Source: Desulfosporosinus sp.
GTDB taxonomy: Bacteria > Bacillota > Desulfitobacteriia > Desulfitobacteriales > Desulfitobacteriaceae
Assembly (NCBI GenBank): GCA_020692355.1
Contig: JAIMKP010000018.1
Coordinates: 1 to 59,093, forward strand
Length of the DNA: 59,093 nt
Direction: 5' to 3'
How positions within the stretch are numbered: the stretch's first letter is position 1; the number at the start of each line of letters is the position of its first letter. Below, piece after piece: positions 64-59,093 of this stretch. Made by a program: the position numbers and the translations under genes. The notes under the pieces were generated by a model. That model saw nothing but the letters and a program-made list of their open reading frames with translations, searched no databases and was not told the DNA's origin.

Positions 64-1446
64 TCAGCTCAAAACCAAATCCTCATTTAAATGTATGATC
101 GCCTTCGTGTACATCTCCCTGTCAATGACAAACTGCATGTTGACTTGGCGCAGGGACTGAGAGACGCAGTTGATGTTGATTCCATGCTTGGCCAAGGTAT
201 TCGATGCCCTGGCTAAAATCTTAGGCATGGCAATATTAGAGCCGATGACACAGACAATAGCCGCCTGTTTAATCCTCACCGTTTGGTACTGGGACTCCAA
301 TTCAGCGATAAGATTCTCGCTTAAGTCGTTTTCCCAAATGACGAGCGAAATGCTATTGGCATTCGTAGCTTTCATGATGTAACTGATGTTATGCCGTTTG
401 AAGGATTGCATAATCTCTAAATCAAAGCCGATTTCTCCGACCATAGAGGTATCATGGATCTCCACCACGACGATTTTATCAGAACCGGCGATGAGCTCAA
501 TCTTGGCCTCCGGGCCGATATAGTCCTTGGATATGACCGTGCCGGGGTGATCCGGTTCAAAGGTATTCTTTACCCGAAGATTTATCCCCGCCATTTCCAA
601 CGGTTTAGAGGCATTAGGATGAATGGCTTCCATGCCGATGTCAGCCAGCTGATCCGCGACATCATAGTTCGTCCAACCGACTGGAATGGCCTTGTCAACA
701 CCTACAATTTTGGGGTCTGCCGAGGAGAGATGATACTCTTTATGAATAATCGCTTCATCGGCTTTAAGGTGTGTAGCAATCTTGGAAAAAGTAATCTCGG
801 AATATCCTCGGTCAAATTGGCGCATGATCCCTTCTTTGCCTTTGGTATAGCCTGTGGCCACAAGGAGCGCTTCGGAGCAAATGACCGCTCGAAAGGTCTT
901 TTCGATCCGTTCACTGATCGATAGTTGTTTGGGATCCCCAAACCCGGTAAGATCCATCAATTTGGCTGAGATGCCATTGTTTTGCAGGATGTGCACTGTA
1001 TTGAATGCGGAATGTGCCTCCCCGAGCGAGGCTAAGAGCTCACGAGCTGCGGAAAAGATGCTCTCCCGCCCCACATACCCGGAAGCTATGATATCCTCCA
1101 TACTATTGAGATAGGCCTTCGTCTGCAGGATGCGTTTCTCCAGGAACTCACGACAGATGTGATAATCCAGCCCAATATCTGTGAAGGACTCGTTGATGCT
1201 AAGAAGCCTGTTTAACAGTTCATCCAGGGAAGTCATATAATCCTCACCCTTGATGAAGTGTTGATAGATGCCAGGAGCTTTCGTTTTCTTGTCTTCTAGG
1301 AGCATGTTGGTGACCCCGGCATAAGCCGAAACCACAAAAACCCTGCCATAACGAAAACGTGGTGAATTGGGAAAGCCAATAATATTGTTCAGTACATCAT
1401 GGAATTGCGACATCGATGTTCCGCCGATTTTCTCAACCGTTAGCAT
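64..1446 (-). CDS. Aspartate kinase, ectoine-cluster (Ask_Ect) type
   Basis: Aspartokinase (EC 2.7.2.4), phosphorylating L-aspartate at the head of the aspartate-family pathway. The N-terminus MLTVEKIGGTSM carries the KxGGTS kinase motif, and the last ~150 residues form two ACT-like regulatory segments. The ATG at 1446 is chosen over one nine codons upstream because GGAGGG lies five bases before it. The opening residues and the YGR-FVVSAYAG-TNMLLE segment resemble, from memory, the aspartokinases linked to ectoine genes rather than ThrA/LysC-type enzymes. No ectABC, lysA or thr gene is nearby; the neighbours are an FlhG-like ATPase and the lysine-fermentation operon. A promoter lies at 1524-1552. 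Function as an aspartokinase is secure; the Ask_Ect sub-type is a recollection-based call. Confidence 0.88.
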   Translation of the reverse strand: MLTVEKIGGTSMSQFHDVLNNIIGFPNSPRFRYGRVFVVSAYAGVTNMLLEDKKTKAPGIYQHFIKGEDYMTSLDELLNRLLSINESFTDIGLDYHICREFLEKRILQTKAYLNSMEDIIASGYVGRESIFSAARELLASLGEAHSAFNTVHILQNNGISAKLMDLTGFGDPKQLSISERIEKTFRAVICSEALLVATGYTKGKEGIMRQFDRGYSEITFSKIATHLKADEAIIHKEYHLSSADPKIVGVDKAIPVGWTNYDVADQLADIGMEAIHPNASKPLEMAGINLRVKNTFEPDHPGTVISKDYIGPEAKIELIAGSDKIVVVEIHDTSMVGEIGFDLEIMQSFKRHNISYIMKATNANSISLVIWENDLSENLIAELESQYQTVRIKQAAIVCVIGSNIAMPKILARASNTLAKHGININCVSQSLRQVNMQFVIDREMYTKAIIHLNEDLVLS

Positions 1447-30779: not shown

Positions 30780-30798
30780 GGTAGGGAAAATCCCTACC
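30780..30798 (-). terminator. Terminator of the 6S-like RNA
   Basis: GGTAGGGA/TCCCTACC stem with three-base loop, then TTCTGTATTT on the minus strand, immediately after the closing stem of the RNA. Confidence 0.6.
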
Positions 30799-30976
30799 TC
30801 TCCCACCTTGCCGTAGGACTCCAGGTTTCTGACCCTGTTCTCGCAGGTGGGCACCTAGGCCATATCTTCCGGCTTCCCTTCGAAAAGGGCTTGTCGTACT
30901 CACATGTTCCATATCAGTTCCCTAAACATCAATAGGATCAAAACCAAGATAAATCCGTACGCACAAGGTAGGTTGT
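30799..30976 (-). ncRNA. ssrS: Probable 6S RNA
   Basis: The gene-free stretch holds a minus-strand RNA of about 175 nt. Its 5' CCTACCTTG pairs with 3' CAAGGTGGG, then CGTACGGA pairs with TCCTACG and GGTTTTGATCCT pairs with AGGGTCAGAAACC. The result is a long interrupted rod around a central open region, with an apical CCCTT-TTCG-AAGGG hairpin. The segments GCCCACCTGCGAGAACAGG and CTACGGCAAGGTGGG parallel the E. coli 6S 3' half. A strong extended -10 sits directly upstream and a terminator downstream. 6S RNA binds sigma-A RNA polymerase; identification is by eye. Confidence 0.75.
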
Positions 30977-30982
30977 ATTTAC

Positions 30983-46389: not shown

Positions 46390-47943
46390 TCAATCAGGTG
46401 ACCACTCGAACGTTTCTTTGCCACAAAGGTCGATCACGCCTAATATTGTAAAAAGCTTAAAGATATTTTGGGAGATATTCTTATAGCGGACAAAAATATT
46501 TCGTTCCCTAGATTTCTTGACTGCTTCAATTATCCCAGCTATCCCAGTTGAATCAACACAAGTAATCCCGCTAAAATTTATTTCTAAGCACTCTATTCCC
46601 TCAAAACAATTCACGCTGGACTTAAAAGCCTCCACTGTGGAAATGTCCAAGATCCCGGATAAGTTTAAGCTCCCCTTGTCATCCACAACATTGGCTTCAA
46701 TCTTTAAGACCCCTCCAGTAATAATTTTTCCGAACCTTTGATCTGCCTGATGCTTAGACCTATGAGAACCATTAAAATCAATGGCGTTAATCGATAGGGC
46801 AAGATCCTGACTCAAATCTACAATTTTTTCTTCTTTAAACCGGTTGCCTTGCTGATTATACATAACTCTTACAGTTGGACGAGTGGGCAGTACAGGTGAA
46901 ACTGCGATAACGGTTCCTATTTCCCCTGTGTTCAAAGTTACTGTGGAGTTTTCCGGATAGATATGTAAACAACACCTAAATGCATGCACAACGTCCGGGG
47001 AAAAATTCTGATTTATGCCCGAAAAAATCATTTCCAGGGCGTGATAAGGGGGTAAAGCCCGCCTGTAAGGACGGTCTTCCGTCAGGGCGTCATAAACATC
47101 CGCCAGTGCTACAATTTGGGCGTTTCGGTGAATTTCCTCTCCCTTTAACCCATCAGGGTATCCTTGCCCATCCCACCGTTCATGGTGTTGACGAACTACT
47201 TTGACTACTTCCTCAGGTAATTTACTCCAGCGTAACATTTGTTCACCACAAATTGGATGTTGTTTAATTAACTCAAATTCAGATGACGTTAAACCTGATG
47301 GTTTATTAAGTATTTCACTTGGAACACTTAGCTTGCCCCAATCGTGAAGAAGAGCTCCCAGAGCCAGATTATGAAGCGTTTCTTGGGTATAACCCGTCTG
47401 CATCCCAATCACTATCGCCAGTAACGTCACGTTAATGGAATGAATATAAGTAAGCTTATCGTACGTTTCTAGGGCGTTGAAGTAAACATAAGAGTATGAT
47501 TCATCCAATCGTGAGACTCCCACTTCTACAAGTGGGAGTGGTACCTCGTACTTTGCTTCGGTGGGGGTAGACTCCCCCACTGAAGTCTCGATGTTCAACT
47601 TTAGTTGAACGAGTTCACTTTCCATTTCTATAAGAATCTGGTTTAATATATCTTTCGCCTTAGATAGATAATCCGCACGAACTAAATTTGTTTCATAATA
47701 TAAGGGATTTATTAAATTCAATGCTTTATGATGTTCTCTTGATAGAGGTATATGAGGCCTGTTTGTCCAATTATATGTAACACTACTAACCTCTTGTTTA
47801 CGGATTACCTGCAGAATTTCCGGTGAAACAAGTTTGCCCTTTTCTAAGAGCAATCTACCCTGAGCGTCAAATAAATCTTGTTCTAAAGCTTGTCCTGTCG
47901 ATATTGAAACTTGTAAAGGTGTAATTTGGAAATTCAAGATCAT
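46390..47943 (-). CDS. HD-GYP phosphodiesterase with C-terminal STAS domain, carrying an in-frame repeat
   Basis: 517 residues, first gene of the operon. HD-GYP motifs: YIHSINVTLLAIVIG, LLHDWGKLSVPSEIL, HHERWDGQGYPDGLKG. Then a beta domain (NTGEIGTVIAVSPVLPTRPT) and a STAS domain (~410-517) with phosphosite CVDSTGIAGIIEA. Between the N-terminal region and the HD motif, about 39 residues (SELVQLKLNIETSVGES...VSRLD) are encoded by repeat copy A read antisense, and the frame stays open. ATG at 47943 follows GAGGGGG. The domain joined to STAS suggests direct coupling of c-di-GMP turnover to partner switching. Confidence 0.88.
   Translation of the reverse strand: MILNFQITPLQVSISTGQALEQDLFDAQGRLLLEKGKLVSPEILQVIRKQEVSSVTYNWTNRPHIPLSREHHKALNLINPLYYETNLVRADYLSKAKDILNQILIEMESELVQLKLNIETSVGESTPTEAKYEVPLPLVEVGVSRLDESYSYVYFNALETYDKLTYIHSINVTLLAIVIGMQTGYTQETLHNLALGALLHDWGKLSVPSEILNKPSGLTSSEFELIKQHPICGEQMLRWSKLPEEVVKVVRQHHERWDGQGYPDGLKGEEIHRNAQIVALADVYDALTEDRPYRRALPPYHALEMIFSGINQNFSPDVVHAFRCCLHIYPENSTVTLNTGEIGTVIAVSPVLPTRPTVRVMYNQQGNRFKEEKIVDLSQDLALSINAIDFNGSHRSKHQADQRFGKIITGGVLKIEANVVDDKGSLNLSGILDISTVEAFKSSVNCFEGIECLEINFSGITCVDSTGIAGIIEAVKKSRERNIFVRYKNISQNIFKLFTILGVIDLCGKETFEWSPD
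47503..47619 (+). repeat. Full structured repeat (copy A), inside an HD-GYP gene
   Basis: About 117 bp, plus orientation. Hairpin 1 ACTCCCACTT-CTAC-AAGTGGGAGT; hairpin 2 CTTCGGTGGGGG with CCCCCACTGAAG; hairpin 3 GTTCAAC-TTTA-GTTGAAC; end GAGTTCACTT. 117 is 39 codons, so the host frame survives. Resembles an IS200/IS605-type right end and TnpB guide-RNA scaffold; no transposase gene is attached. Confidence 0.85.
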
Positions 47944-48009
47944 CCACCCCCTCATATAAAGCAAATCATCACCACCTAGCAGGCAGTGACGACACTTACA
48001 AAAGCCTGT

Positions 48010-48095
48010 GTTTGGTAGTCCGGCGATCATCATCCTAAAATGGAAGACCCGTAACTTTGCGTCCCTAACTTTCGTCAAGTTTGCCTTTTTCGCAC
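48010..48095 (-). promoter_or_regulatory. Class I c-di-GMP riboswitch (GEMM-I)
   Basis: Minus-strand leader of the HD-GYP operon. GGCAAAC, then a hairpin CTTGAC-GAAA-GTTAGG with a GNRA tetraloop, then the invariant GGGACGCAAAG, then the P3 side and ATGATCGCCGGACTACC. This is the GEMM-I order and spacing. About 65 bp separate the aptamer from the start codon, and ACAGGC...GCCTGC within it could act as the expression platform. Confidence 0.92.
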
Positions 48096-48174: not shown

Positions 48175-48360
48175 CCTTGTTACGTACCTCTGCCACAATG
48201 GGCCTAATACTTCCCCGACCAACTCTGGATCCAAGCGGAAGTCGGTTCATCAAAGAGCATCACTTTCGGCTTCATGGCCAGAGCTCGGGCAATCGCTACC
48301 CGCTGTTTTTGCCCGCCTGATAAATTATCCGGAAATGCTTTCGCCTTGTCCAAAAGCGAT
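48175..48360 (-). pseudogene. ABC transporter ATPase fragment (frameshifted)
   Basis: Minus-strand reading gives [20 protein letters not shown] (signature motif), [19 protein letters not shown] (Walker B), then after a one-base frameshift [10 protein letters not shown]. This is the C-terminal third of a polar amino-acid-type ABC ATPase (GlnQ-like). No N-terminus or start. It occupies the gap between the NRAMP gene and the riboswitch promoter. Confidence 0.8.
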
Positions 48361-48427: not shown

Positions 48428-49675
48428 CTAACTAACTCCCTTAAACAGCCCCGGAAAGAGGGTTGCCGCCAATAATAAAAGGGTTAAAACAATCAAGATC
48501 CCGGTAAAAGTCCAGGCTACCCCATTATAGGTGCGGGAGTTGGCGTAATCTCCCATCAGCTTCTTCTTACTTGCGATCAGCATCATGAACACCAGGATCG
48601 GAGGTAACAAGATCCCATTAATCACCTGAGTCGTCAACATCACCCGATAGAGAGACAACCCCGGCCAGAGCACTAAACCTGCACTAATCCCGATGATGGC
48701 GGTATAGAGTCCGAAAAAAACGGGTGCCTCTTTGTAGGACTTGCTCACGCCATGCTCAAAACCAAACGCTTCGCACACGGCATAGGAAGTGCTCAACGGC
48801 AGGACAAAAGCTGCCAGCATTGAAGCCCCTAATAAGCCAAAACCGAAAAGAAGACTAGCATACTCACCCGCGACCGGGCGCAAGGCAATGGCCACATCCT
48901 TGATGGTTTCGATCGAAATATGATTTACAAAGAGAGTGGTAGCCGTGGAAACAATGATAAAGAACGCAATGAATCCGGTAAAAAATGAGCCCACGAATAC
49001 GTCCCAGCGGGTGTAACGGTACTCCTTGGCAGTAATCCCTTTATCCACCACAGAGGCCTGAACATAGAATTGTCCCCAGGGGGTAATGGTCGTTCCGATG
49101 ACCCCAACCGCCATGAGCAGAAACTCCGGACTCCCGCCAAAGTTCGGAGTAATAGATTGCACGAGAACCTCTTTCCAGGGAGGATGAACAATGAACCCCG
49201 ACAAGACATAACTAAAAAATGATAGGCAGAGGAGTAGGAACACTTTTTCTATCTTTTCGTAATCCGTTTTAATCACGAGCCACCAAATGATGCTGGCCAT
49301 CAGGGGAACAGAAATATACTTGCCGACCCCAAGAATTTCAAAACTCGTGGCAATCCCGGAGAATTCGGAGATAGTAGTCCCTAAGTTCGCCACCATGAGC
49401 ACGCCCATGGCAAAGAACGTCCAACGCACCCCGTAATGCTCCCGGATCAAATCAGAAAGCCCCCTGCCCGTGACCGCACCGGTTCGAGCCGACATCTCTT
49501 GAGCGATAGCCAAAAAAACCGTACTTACGATCATCGTAAAAATAAGGGCATAACCGTACTTGGCCCCCGCCGCCGCATAGGTGGCAATTCCTCCTGCATC
49601 ATTATCAGCAAAGGCGGTCACAATCCCTGGACCCATTACGGACAAAAATAGAAACAGCCGTGCTCTTTGAGACAT
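48428..49675 (-). CDS. NRAMP-family transporter, probable Mg2+ importer (NRMT-like)
   Basis: 415-residue LeuT-fold transporter with about 11 membrane segments. In TM1 the canonical metal motif DPGN reads ADNDAGGIATY. In TM6 the usual MPHN motif is absent, with GVIGTTITPWGQFY instead, so the metal-binding Met is missing. Loss of that methionine marks Mg2+-transporting relatives (NRMT), as I recall from work on a NRAMP-related Mg transporter. An M-box Mg2+ riboswitch directly upstream agrees with this. ATG at 49675 follows GAGGTGAG. Divalent-metal transport is secure; Mg2+ specificity is inference with two independent supports. Confidence 0.85.
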   Translation of the reverse strand: MSQRARLFLFLSVMGPGIVTAFADNDAGGIATYAAAGAKYGYALIFTMIVSTVFLAIAQEMSARTGAVTGRGLSDLIREHYGVRWTFFAMGVLMVANLGTTISEFSGIATSFEILGVGKYISVPLMASIIWWLVIKTDYEKIEKVFLLLCLSFFSYVLSGFIVHPPWKEVLVQSITPNFGGSPEFLLMAVGVIGTTITPWGQFYVQASVVDKGITAKEYRYTRWDVFVGSFFTGFIAFFIIVSTATTLFVNHISIETIKDVAIALRPVAGEYASLLFGFGLLGASMLAAFVLPLSTSYAVCEAFGFEHGVSKSYKEAPVFFGLYTAIIGISAGLVLWPGLSLYRVMLTTQVINGILLPPILVFMMLIASKKKLMGDYANSRTYNGVAWTFTGILIVLTLLLLAATLFPGLFKGVS

Positions 49676-49755
49676 CCCACTCACCTCAATCATAGCTAAC
49701 TATCATAGTATGCCCCGATTCCGTGGAGCGTTCCCAAACCGCATTAGGCAAGCAC

Positions 49756-49782
49756 AGTGAACTCGTTTCGCTAAAGCAAAAC
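49756..49782 (-). repeat. Partial structured repeat (copy G)
   Basis: Minus strand GTTTTGC-TTTA-GCGAAAC then GAGTTCACT. Same loop and end as other copies, but a different, still paired stem (one G-T wobble). It lies between the M-box terminator and the NRAMP gene, and is the only copy in minus orientation. Confidence 0.7.
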
Positions 49783-49816
49783 ATGATAAAAGGAGCCTTC
49801 CCATTGTGAAGGCCCC
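49783..49816 (-). terminator. M-box riboswitch terminator
   Basis: GGGGCCTTC pairs with GAAGGCTCC, followed by TTTTATCATG on the minus strand. It sits between aptamer and NRAMP gene as expected for Mg2+-dependent attenuation. Confidence 0.75.
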
Positions 49817-49837
49817 ACTGAACAAGCGCACGTCGAT

Positions 49838-50006
49838 ACTCTGACCTTCTCTTCTCATCGAGCTTTGGCACTGCACAACGTAGAGCACCGCTCAGCCACA
49901 TTAAGTAAGACCTTAAGCCGGTCATACCTGTTATACCCCTTGGCGTCTCTCGACATTTCCGGGCAGTGGCCTGTGTTCATACAGGAGCCTCACCTAACAG
50001 AGAATG
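49838..50006 (-). promoter_or_regulatory. M-box (ykoK) Mg2+ riboswitch
   Basis: Minus-strand segments GTTAGGTGAGGCTCCTGTA, CCACTGCCCGGAAATGTCG, AGAGACGCCAAGGGG and GTGCAGTGCCAAAGCTC match the M-box consensus in order. CTCTG and CAGAG at the two ends can form the closing stem P1. Controls the NRAMP-family gene. Confidence 0.92.
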
Positions 50007-50022
50007 TTTAATTGTCACCTTA

Positions 50023-50051
50023 ATTATAATGAAACTCATCAGGATATGCAA
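50023..50051 (-). promoter_or_regulatory. Promoter of the M-box transcript
   Basis: Minus strand TTGCAT (50046-50051), 17 bases, TATAAT (50023-50028), just upstream of the aptamer. Confidence 0.7.
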
Positions 50052-58852: not shown

Positions 58853-58936
58853 CGTTCTCACCTCAATACGGGAATTCGACCCACAAGGACATAAATCCTC
58901 TTTATGCTTGGATGTTTCTTAGTAAACTCTCTCTTT

Positions 58937-59054
58937 ATCCAATCGTAAGACTCCCACTTCTACAAGTGGGAGTGGGTCCCCCGTACTCTGCTTCGGTGGG
59001 GGCAGACTCCCCCACCGAAGTCTCGATGTTCAGCTTGAGCTGAACGAGTTCACT
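58937..59054 (+). repeat. Full structured repeat (copy B)
   Basis: About 118 bp, plus orientation, 84 bp upstream of the FtsA-like start. Same three hairpins as copy A, with hairpin 3 changed to GTTCAGC-TTGA-GCTGAAC: an A-to-G change in one arm is matched by T-to-C in the other. End GAGTTCACT. Confidence 0.85.
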
Positions 59055-59093
59055 TAGCCAAACCAATGCGAATATTGCGGGTCAAATTTTGGG

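Follow-up and report, generated by a model that had tools for sequence, protein, structure and literature searches.

An NRAMP-related transporter gene of Desulfosporosinus sp. lies behind what an earlier note on the same DNA had read as a Mg2+-sensing M-box, and the question raised by the locus is which metal its product imports and under what control. We analyzed this gene, nrmT, within the window (the whole stretch of 59,093 nucleotides, contig JAIMKP010000018.1) and alongside related loci from other genomes. M-box-controlled NRMTs are already published: NrmT was named by Shin et al. in 2014 from just such an M-box association (PMC4072509), and Ramanadane et al. in 2022 reported the structure of EleNRMT together with the NRMT signature, DxxG in TM1 and TxxA/T in TM6 (PMC8806188). 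The window nrmT adds one member to these.

The transporter and its family

On the minus strand of the window the longer open reading frame of nrmT spans 48428-49693 and is intact over 421 codons. Translation probably starts at the ATG at 49673-49675 (first base 49675) rather than at 49693, because residue 7 of the long-frame protein is where homologues start and a Shine-Dalgarno (SD) sequence read from the letters, GAGGTG (49682-49687, minus strand), stands 6 nt ahead of this ATG. The gene so delimited, 48428-49675, is predicted to encode an NRAMP-related Mg2+ transporter from its frame, Pfam and structure matches, homologue starts, motifs and tree. The protein matches the Pfam family Nramp (PF01566) with 330.9 bits, and the one NCBIfam model that it matches above cut-off is the general 'Nramp family divalent metal transporter' (61.8 against 50). 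Identity as a canonical MntH was considered and rejected: NrmT scores 151 bits where the cut-off of NF001923 is 430, and the DPGN and MPH motifs are absent. Its best match among solved structures is EleNRMT of Eggerthella lenta (PDB 7qia; 378.5 bits, aligned over 2-410), the next NRAMP scoring 95.8.

The earlier note had claimed ADNDAGG in TM1 and absence of the TM6 methionine motif; the alignment confirms the former, and TM6 reads GTTITPW, with neither a methionine nor an MPH motif. The corresponding segments are AGNDAGG and GTTIAPW in EleNRMT, and AYIDPGN and GATVMPH in the MntH of the same genome. With DAGG and TTIT, NrmT fits the signature as given in PMC8806188 and belongs to the same signature class as EleNRMT, with which its TM3 glutamate (SEF) and TM10 glutamine also align. 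It differs from EleNRMT in having threonine in TM6 where the latter has alanine, and Asp, not Gly, two residues ahead of the metal-site Asp. The TM6b histidines of proton-coupled NRAMPs, whose roles we take from PMC8806188, are replaced by W and V in NrmT and by W and N in EleNRMT, so that the two proteins differ at the second of these positions. Measured against the LeuT-fold metal site of NRAMPs, NrmT would have exchanged the soft methionine for threonine, the TM1 asparagine for glycine and the TM6 alanine for threonine, and with these replacements it would be expected to take largely hydrated Mg2+, without proton coupling.

The phylogeny that the earlier note had suggested as a check was computed on 60 rows (row L033 was left out) and places NrmT with EleNRMT, apart from the Mn2+ transporters. 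The 48 NRMT rows, EleNRMT and the window NrmT included, form one group with support 97/74, a fork with only 74% SH-aLRT in a tree that has long branches, and seven MntH rows form a separate group (100/100). NrmT falls in a clade of 26 rows (100/99) together with genomes of its own family and Desulfosporosinus, its nearest relative in the tree being that of genome G007 (83% identity). One sequence that is an NRMT by motif, L283, falls outside the NRMT group on a very long branch. The genome itself holds two NRAMPs, NrmT and the canonical MntH with DPGN/ATVMPH; a domain search found no MgtE membrane domain in it, and it has one CorA relative, an inventory that leaves room for a dedicated Mg2+ importer.

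A probable M-box switch ahead of nrmT

The leader of nrmT carries a complete M-box aptamer at 49843-50008 (minus strand), which matches RF00380 in an Rfam search with 147.1 bits (E 1.9e-33; gathering score 44 bits) over model positions 1-169 of 169; this score and the full length rule out an unrelated or chance match. A search of the whole Desulfosporosinus genome found no other M-box. Behind the aptamer a terminator scan and folding locate an intrinsic terminator at 49792-49816 (minus strand) with a 9-bp stem, such scanning of the leader having found one where 0.4 were expected; its T-tract, TTTTATC, is short, which counts against the reading. The 3' strand of aptamer helix P1, GAAGGUC (49843-49849, minus strand), has an alternative partner in the 5' arm of the terminator (49808-49814), giving an antiterminator, and by computed energies only this duplex amounts to -11.5 kcal/mol against -7.6 for P1. 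Terminator and antiterminator are mutually exclusive, a classical arrangement for an expression platform. As in the ykoK/mgtE M-box of Bacillus subtilis (RF00380), a complete aptamer is combined with a terminator switch, but the gene controlled here is nrmT and not mgtE.

Upstream of the aptamer, a perfect -10 element TATAAT (50023-50028, minus strand) is separated by 17 nt from a possible -35 element TTGCAT (50046-50051, minus strand), both read from the sequence. The -35 element is weak, and a consensus scanner that requires at least 4 of 6 matches per hexamer did not report the pair, so this promoter is plausible only. Of the three leader elements asserted in the earlier note, the M-box, for which it had proposed the RF00380 search, and the terminator are thus borne out, and the promoter is plausible, with a -35 element that is weak.

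These elements suggest how the switch would operate. At high cytoplasmic Mg2+ the aptamer would fold and retain the 3' strand of P1, the terminator would form and transcription would end ahead of nrmT; at low Mg2+ GAAGGUC would instead pair with the 5' arm of the terminator, leading to readthrough and production of the transporter. With high probability the locus is a transcription unit that is repressed by Mg2+, encodes an NRMT-type Mg2+ importer and is controlled by this M-box switch, and the RF00380 match, the NRMT signature and the grouping with EleNRMT support the Mg2+-importer reading with which the earlier note had begun. Our results give directly the sequence elements, the placement of the protein in its family and the two pairings that exclude each other; Mg2+ as ligand of the riboswitch and as transport substrate is what we infer from described families.

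Linkage of the M-box to NRMT genes and the choice of metal

A search of named genomes gave 33 loci, of which 28 code for an NRMT and extend far enough upstream to be scored (L017, L030 and L032 are cut off upstream, and L037 and L038 are partial, distant matches). An M-box lies upstream in 27 of these 28, the exception being L031 from a Coriobacteriales genome, and the scores at related nrmT loci, 143.8-163.8 bits, are close to that of the window aptamer. By the same gathering score no M-box was found within the flanks, which reach about 1.5 kb at most on either side, of the seven MntH-type loci (L001, L057-L062) or of the four loci of the DTDAGS group (L055, L065-L067). One of the MntH-type genes, that of L061, has a cobalamin riboswitch (90.8 bits; 1250-1436, minus strand, the coding strand) just downstream of it.

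This linkage bears on the unlikely alternative that NrmT is chiefly an importer of Mn2+ or a broad range of divalent metals, with its expression merely tied to the supply of Mg2+. The NrmT of A. capsulatum, which has no M-box, fully restored Mn2+ uptake (PMC4072509), and EleNRMT carries Mn2+ with a Km of about 120 µM (PMC8806188), so that the signature alone is no proof of selectivity. The statement of the earlier note that regulation and binding site are independent pointers to Mg2+ is therefore slightly overstated. Against transport chiefly of Mn2+ stand the nearly constant M-box control among the testable relatives, the separate canonical MntH of the same genome, and the M-box-linked NrmTs assayed in PMC4072509, which transported Mg2+. 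We retain Mg2+ as the probable substrate.

Loss of the MgtE_N-CBS partner

All 29 testable relatives carry, immediately ahead of nrmT and as a rule overlapping it, an MgtE_N-CBS gene of some 430 codons, which in L033 is divided between two frames. The window has no MgtE_N-type gene beside nrmT, and its M-box lies directly before nrmT. In the NRMT operons described in 2014 an MgtE_N-type gene near nrmT is common, not defining (PMC4072509). The window unit is like that of the Clostridium acetobutylicum NrmTs (Ca_c0685 and Ca_c3329), which belong to the same clade by description, in placing an NRAMP relative behind an M-box and a transcription terminator, and differs from most described members in having no MgtE_N-type neighbour, a gene that for Ca_c0685 is divided in two (PMC4072509). 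Among the 61 M-boxes of a class sample of 82 genomes, 34 precede mgtE_N and nrmT, three precede nrmT directly (the window, G003 and G011), and the other 24 are followed by something different or by unfinished sequence.

The sole MgtE_N protein of the genome, with MgtE_N, CBS and PRC domains, is encoded on another contig, C47, ahead of a gene that by eye we take to be a phosphofructokinase. Its counterparts in G003 and G011 (82.5% identity) stand behind an M-box (L161, L165), whereas the C47 gene has none; a degenerate M-box was sought there as well, and even a permissive Rfam search of L005 1-1000 returned nothing. G007, whose nrmT is the nearest, has an M-box 85% identical to that of the window and an mgtE_N divided between two overlapping frames. 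Because of these comparisons with G003, G011, C47 and G007, it appears that the M-box and nrmT stayed paired while the mgtE_N between them was lost. Two features of its relatives would have gone from the unit together, the MgtE_N-CBS gene in first position and a short acidic leader ORF.

Such a history might also signify that the unit, having lost mgtE_N and moved beside a gene that we presumptively name lgt, is decaying and is no longer an effective Mg2+ system. The absence of a gene present in every testable relative is in keeping with this, as is the separation of nrmT (704.9 kb) from lgt (1288 kb) in G007, where the two are not adjacent as they now are in the window. The intact nrmT frame, the retained signature residues, an aptamer that scores near those of the relatives and the direct M-box-nrmT units of G003 and G011 all speak against decay, which we regard as very improbable. 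As an operon without its usual partner, the nrmT locus is of modest interest.

Several other features were observed in the window. A repeat of 120 bp, folding into three hairpins, occurs at 47500-47620 and 58934-59055; the genome has dozens of copies, up to 99% identical, it is also present in family members, and the gene at 46390-48078 has one copy within its frame. A c-di-GMP-I-GGC riboswitch at 48010-48094 (minus strand, 67.7 bits) precedes a gene which by eye we take to encode an HD-GYP protein. Between this riboswitch and nrmT, at about 48200-48330 (minus strand), lies a putative remnant of an ABC-transporter ATPase, presumed from a signature and Walker B motif seen by eye and apparently frameshifted. 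A 6S RNA is found at 30796-30977 (minus strand, 70.3 bits).

Acidic leader ORFs behind M-boxes

In relatives, a short ORF with a strong SD and a start of the form M-D-S/A-G-P lies between the M-box terminator and mgtE_N. Acidic and proline-containing starts of this sort behind M-box terminators include MDSGP, MDGDP and MDPDP, and loci with such ORFs include L006 (1583-1700), L020 (1589-1700), L284 and L204. Its occurrence was surveyed with an ORF caller blind to the peptide, which uses an SD motif, a start and a length of 5-60 codons before the first gene, in 181 M-box leaders: the 61 of the class, and 120 from a phylum sample of 398 genomes in which 146 places were listed by hand count, 11 being already included and 15 omitted as contig ends, near-duplicates of one genus or the weakest matches. 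An SD-led ORF is present in 112 of the 181 leaders and absent from 69; codon 2 is Asp or Glu in 76 of the 112, and 61 of these 76 also have Pro within residues 2-8. The SD-led long genes of the same loci have an acidic codon 2 in 17 of 136 cases and the combination with Pro in 0 of 136. Dinucleotide-shuffled leaders yield an ORF in 645 of 3620, with an acidic codon 2 in 8.4% of those. Leaders of SAM and TPP riboswitches (30 high-scoring loci each, picked by the search tool from class genomes only) yield an ORF in 4/30 and 4/30, with an acidic codon 2 in 0/8 combined.

As the leaders are related, Fisher values overstate the difference, and the fairer figure is that by taxonomic family: an acidic codon 2 is the majority state in 20 of the 34 families with an ORF (binomial 2e-10 against background). 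Outside the class only 20 of 48 families show an acidic leader ORF. The pattern recurs before unrelated transport genes, namely mgtE/mgtE_N, corA and P-type ATPases, the first two classes assigned by BLAST with seeds from this genome (mgtE_N, corA) and the last by reading the sequence. A T-run precedes the ORF in all 85 leaders having one. In the MD(S/A)GP starts the third codon positions vary (GGC 17, GGA 7, GGT 5, GGG 1; GAT 25, GAC 5), and the tail of the ORF is variable while its start is kept; this variation points to the start of the peptide as the conserved element. In almost every one of 26 leaders, codons 2-5 can pair with the stretch immediately upstream of the mgtE_N SD. Covariation fails as proof of this helix, its 5' side being fixed by the codons, and the T-A to C-G changes in three leaders are suggestive only.

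Within the class the ORF occurs in 32 of the 34 M-box-mgtE_N-nrmT leaders, if the MGSGP starts without an acidic residue (L152 and L160) are counted, and in none of the three direct M-box-nrmT leaders. The window nrmT leader is one of these three: when all its ORFs were listed, none combined an SD with an acidic start, and the one at +59 (MFCFSETS...) has no SD. The mgtE_N on C47, which lacks an M-box, is preceded by a leader ORF with the same SD, MDSSPERR... (L005, about 840-950). Across the 181 leaders the caller found no ORF with an acidic codon 2 in the five before nrmT directly or in the 17 before an ABC permease. These 17 M-boxes (L127, L130, L235 and 14 more) precede a double-permease ABC transporter gene, PF00528 matching two stretches in L235, possibly another type of importer under Mg2+ control.

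The enterobacterial leader peptide MgtL has acidic and proline codons near its start, which destabilise the ribosome at low Mg2+ and raise mgtA expression (PMC11552253, PMC11282234). MgtQ, which has Asp2 and Glu5, targets an RNA switch at the ribosome site of mgtB (PMC8092293). The leader ORFs of the relatives resemble both in their acidic and proline residues within the first codons and in their position ahead of Mg2+ transport genes (PMC11552253, PMC8092293, PMC11282234). They differ in sitting behind an M-box terminator, in a sample of the window's phylum; the window's own nrmT leader lacks such an ORF. In mycobacteria a conserved ORF with a conserved proline lies behind an M-box, its role not being assigned in the paper (PMC12810186). 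A literature search brought up no paper joining M-boxes with acidic leader ORFs, which is no proof of absence.

It is conceivable, and we offer it tentatively, at slightly less than even confidence, that in many relatives and across the phylum the M-box is the first of two Mg2+ sensors on one leader. The acidic, proline-containing ORF behind the terminator may work like MgtL and MgtQ, early ribosome drop-off at low Mg2+ leading to more translation or transcription of the downstream Mg2+ gene. Against this idea speak the 69 leaders without an SD-led ORF, the lack of acidic-codon-2 ORFs before the ABC permease and directly before nrmT, the figure of only 20 of 48 families outside the class, and the MGSGP starts of L152 and L160. 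The window genome would then offer a natural dissection, in which nrmT is driven by the M-box without the leader ORF, and mgtE_N on C47 is preceded by the leader ORF without an M-box. We consider these ORFs the most novel part of the present results and more worth following than the nrmT locus.

Implications

For annotation, the label otherwise given to the nrmT gene would be Mn/Fe transporter, which the M-box together with the signature corrects. For evolution, an M-box-nrmT unit without the MgtE_N-CBS gene provides a ready test of the role of that gene. If the acidic ORFs are indeed Mg2+ sensors based on ribosome drop-off, riboswitch and leader-peptide sensing, which are known separately, would be stacked on one mRNA, and the conserved ORF behind the mycobacterial M-box (PMC12810186) may be of the same kind.
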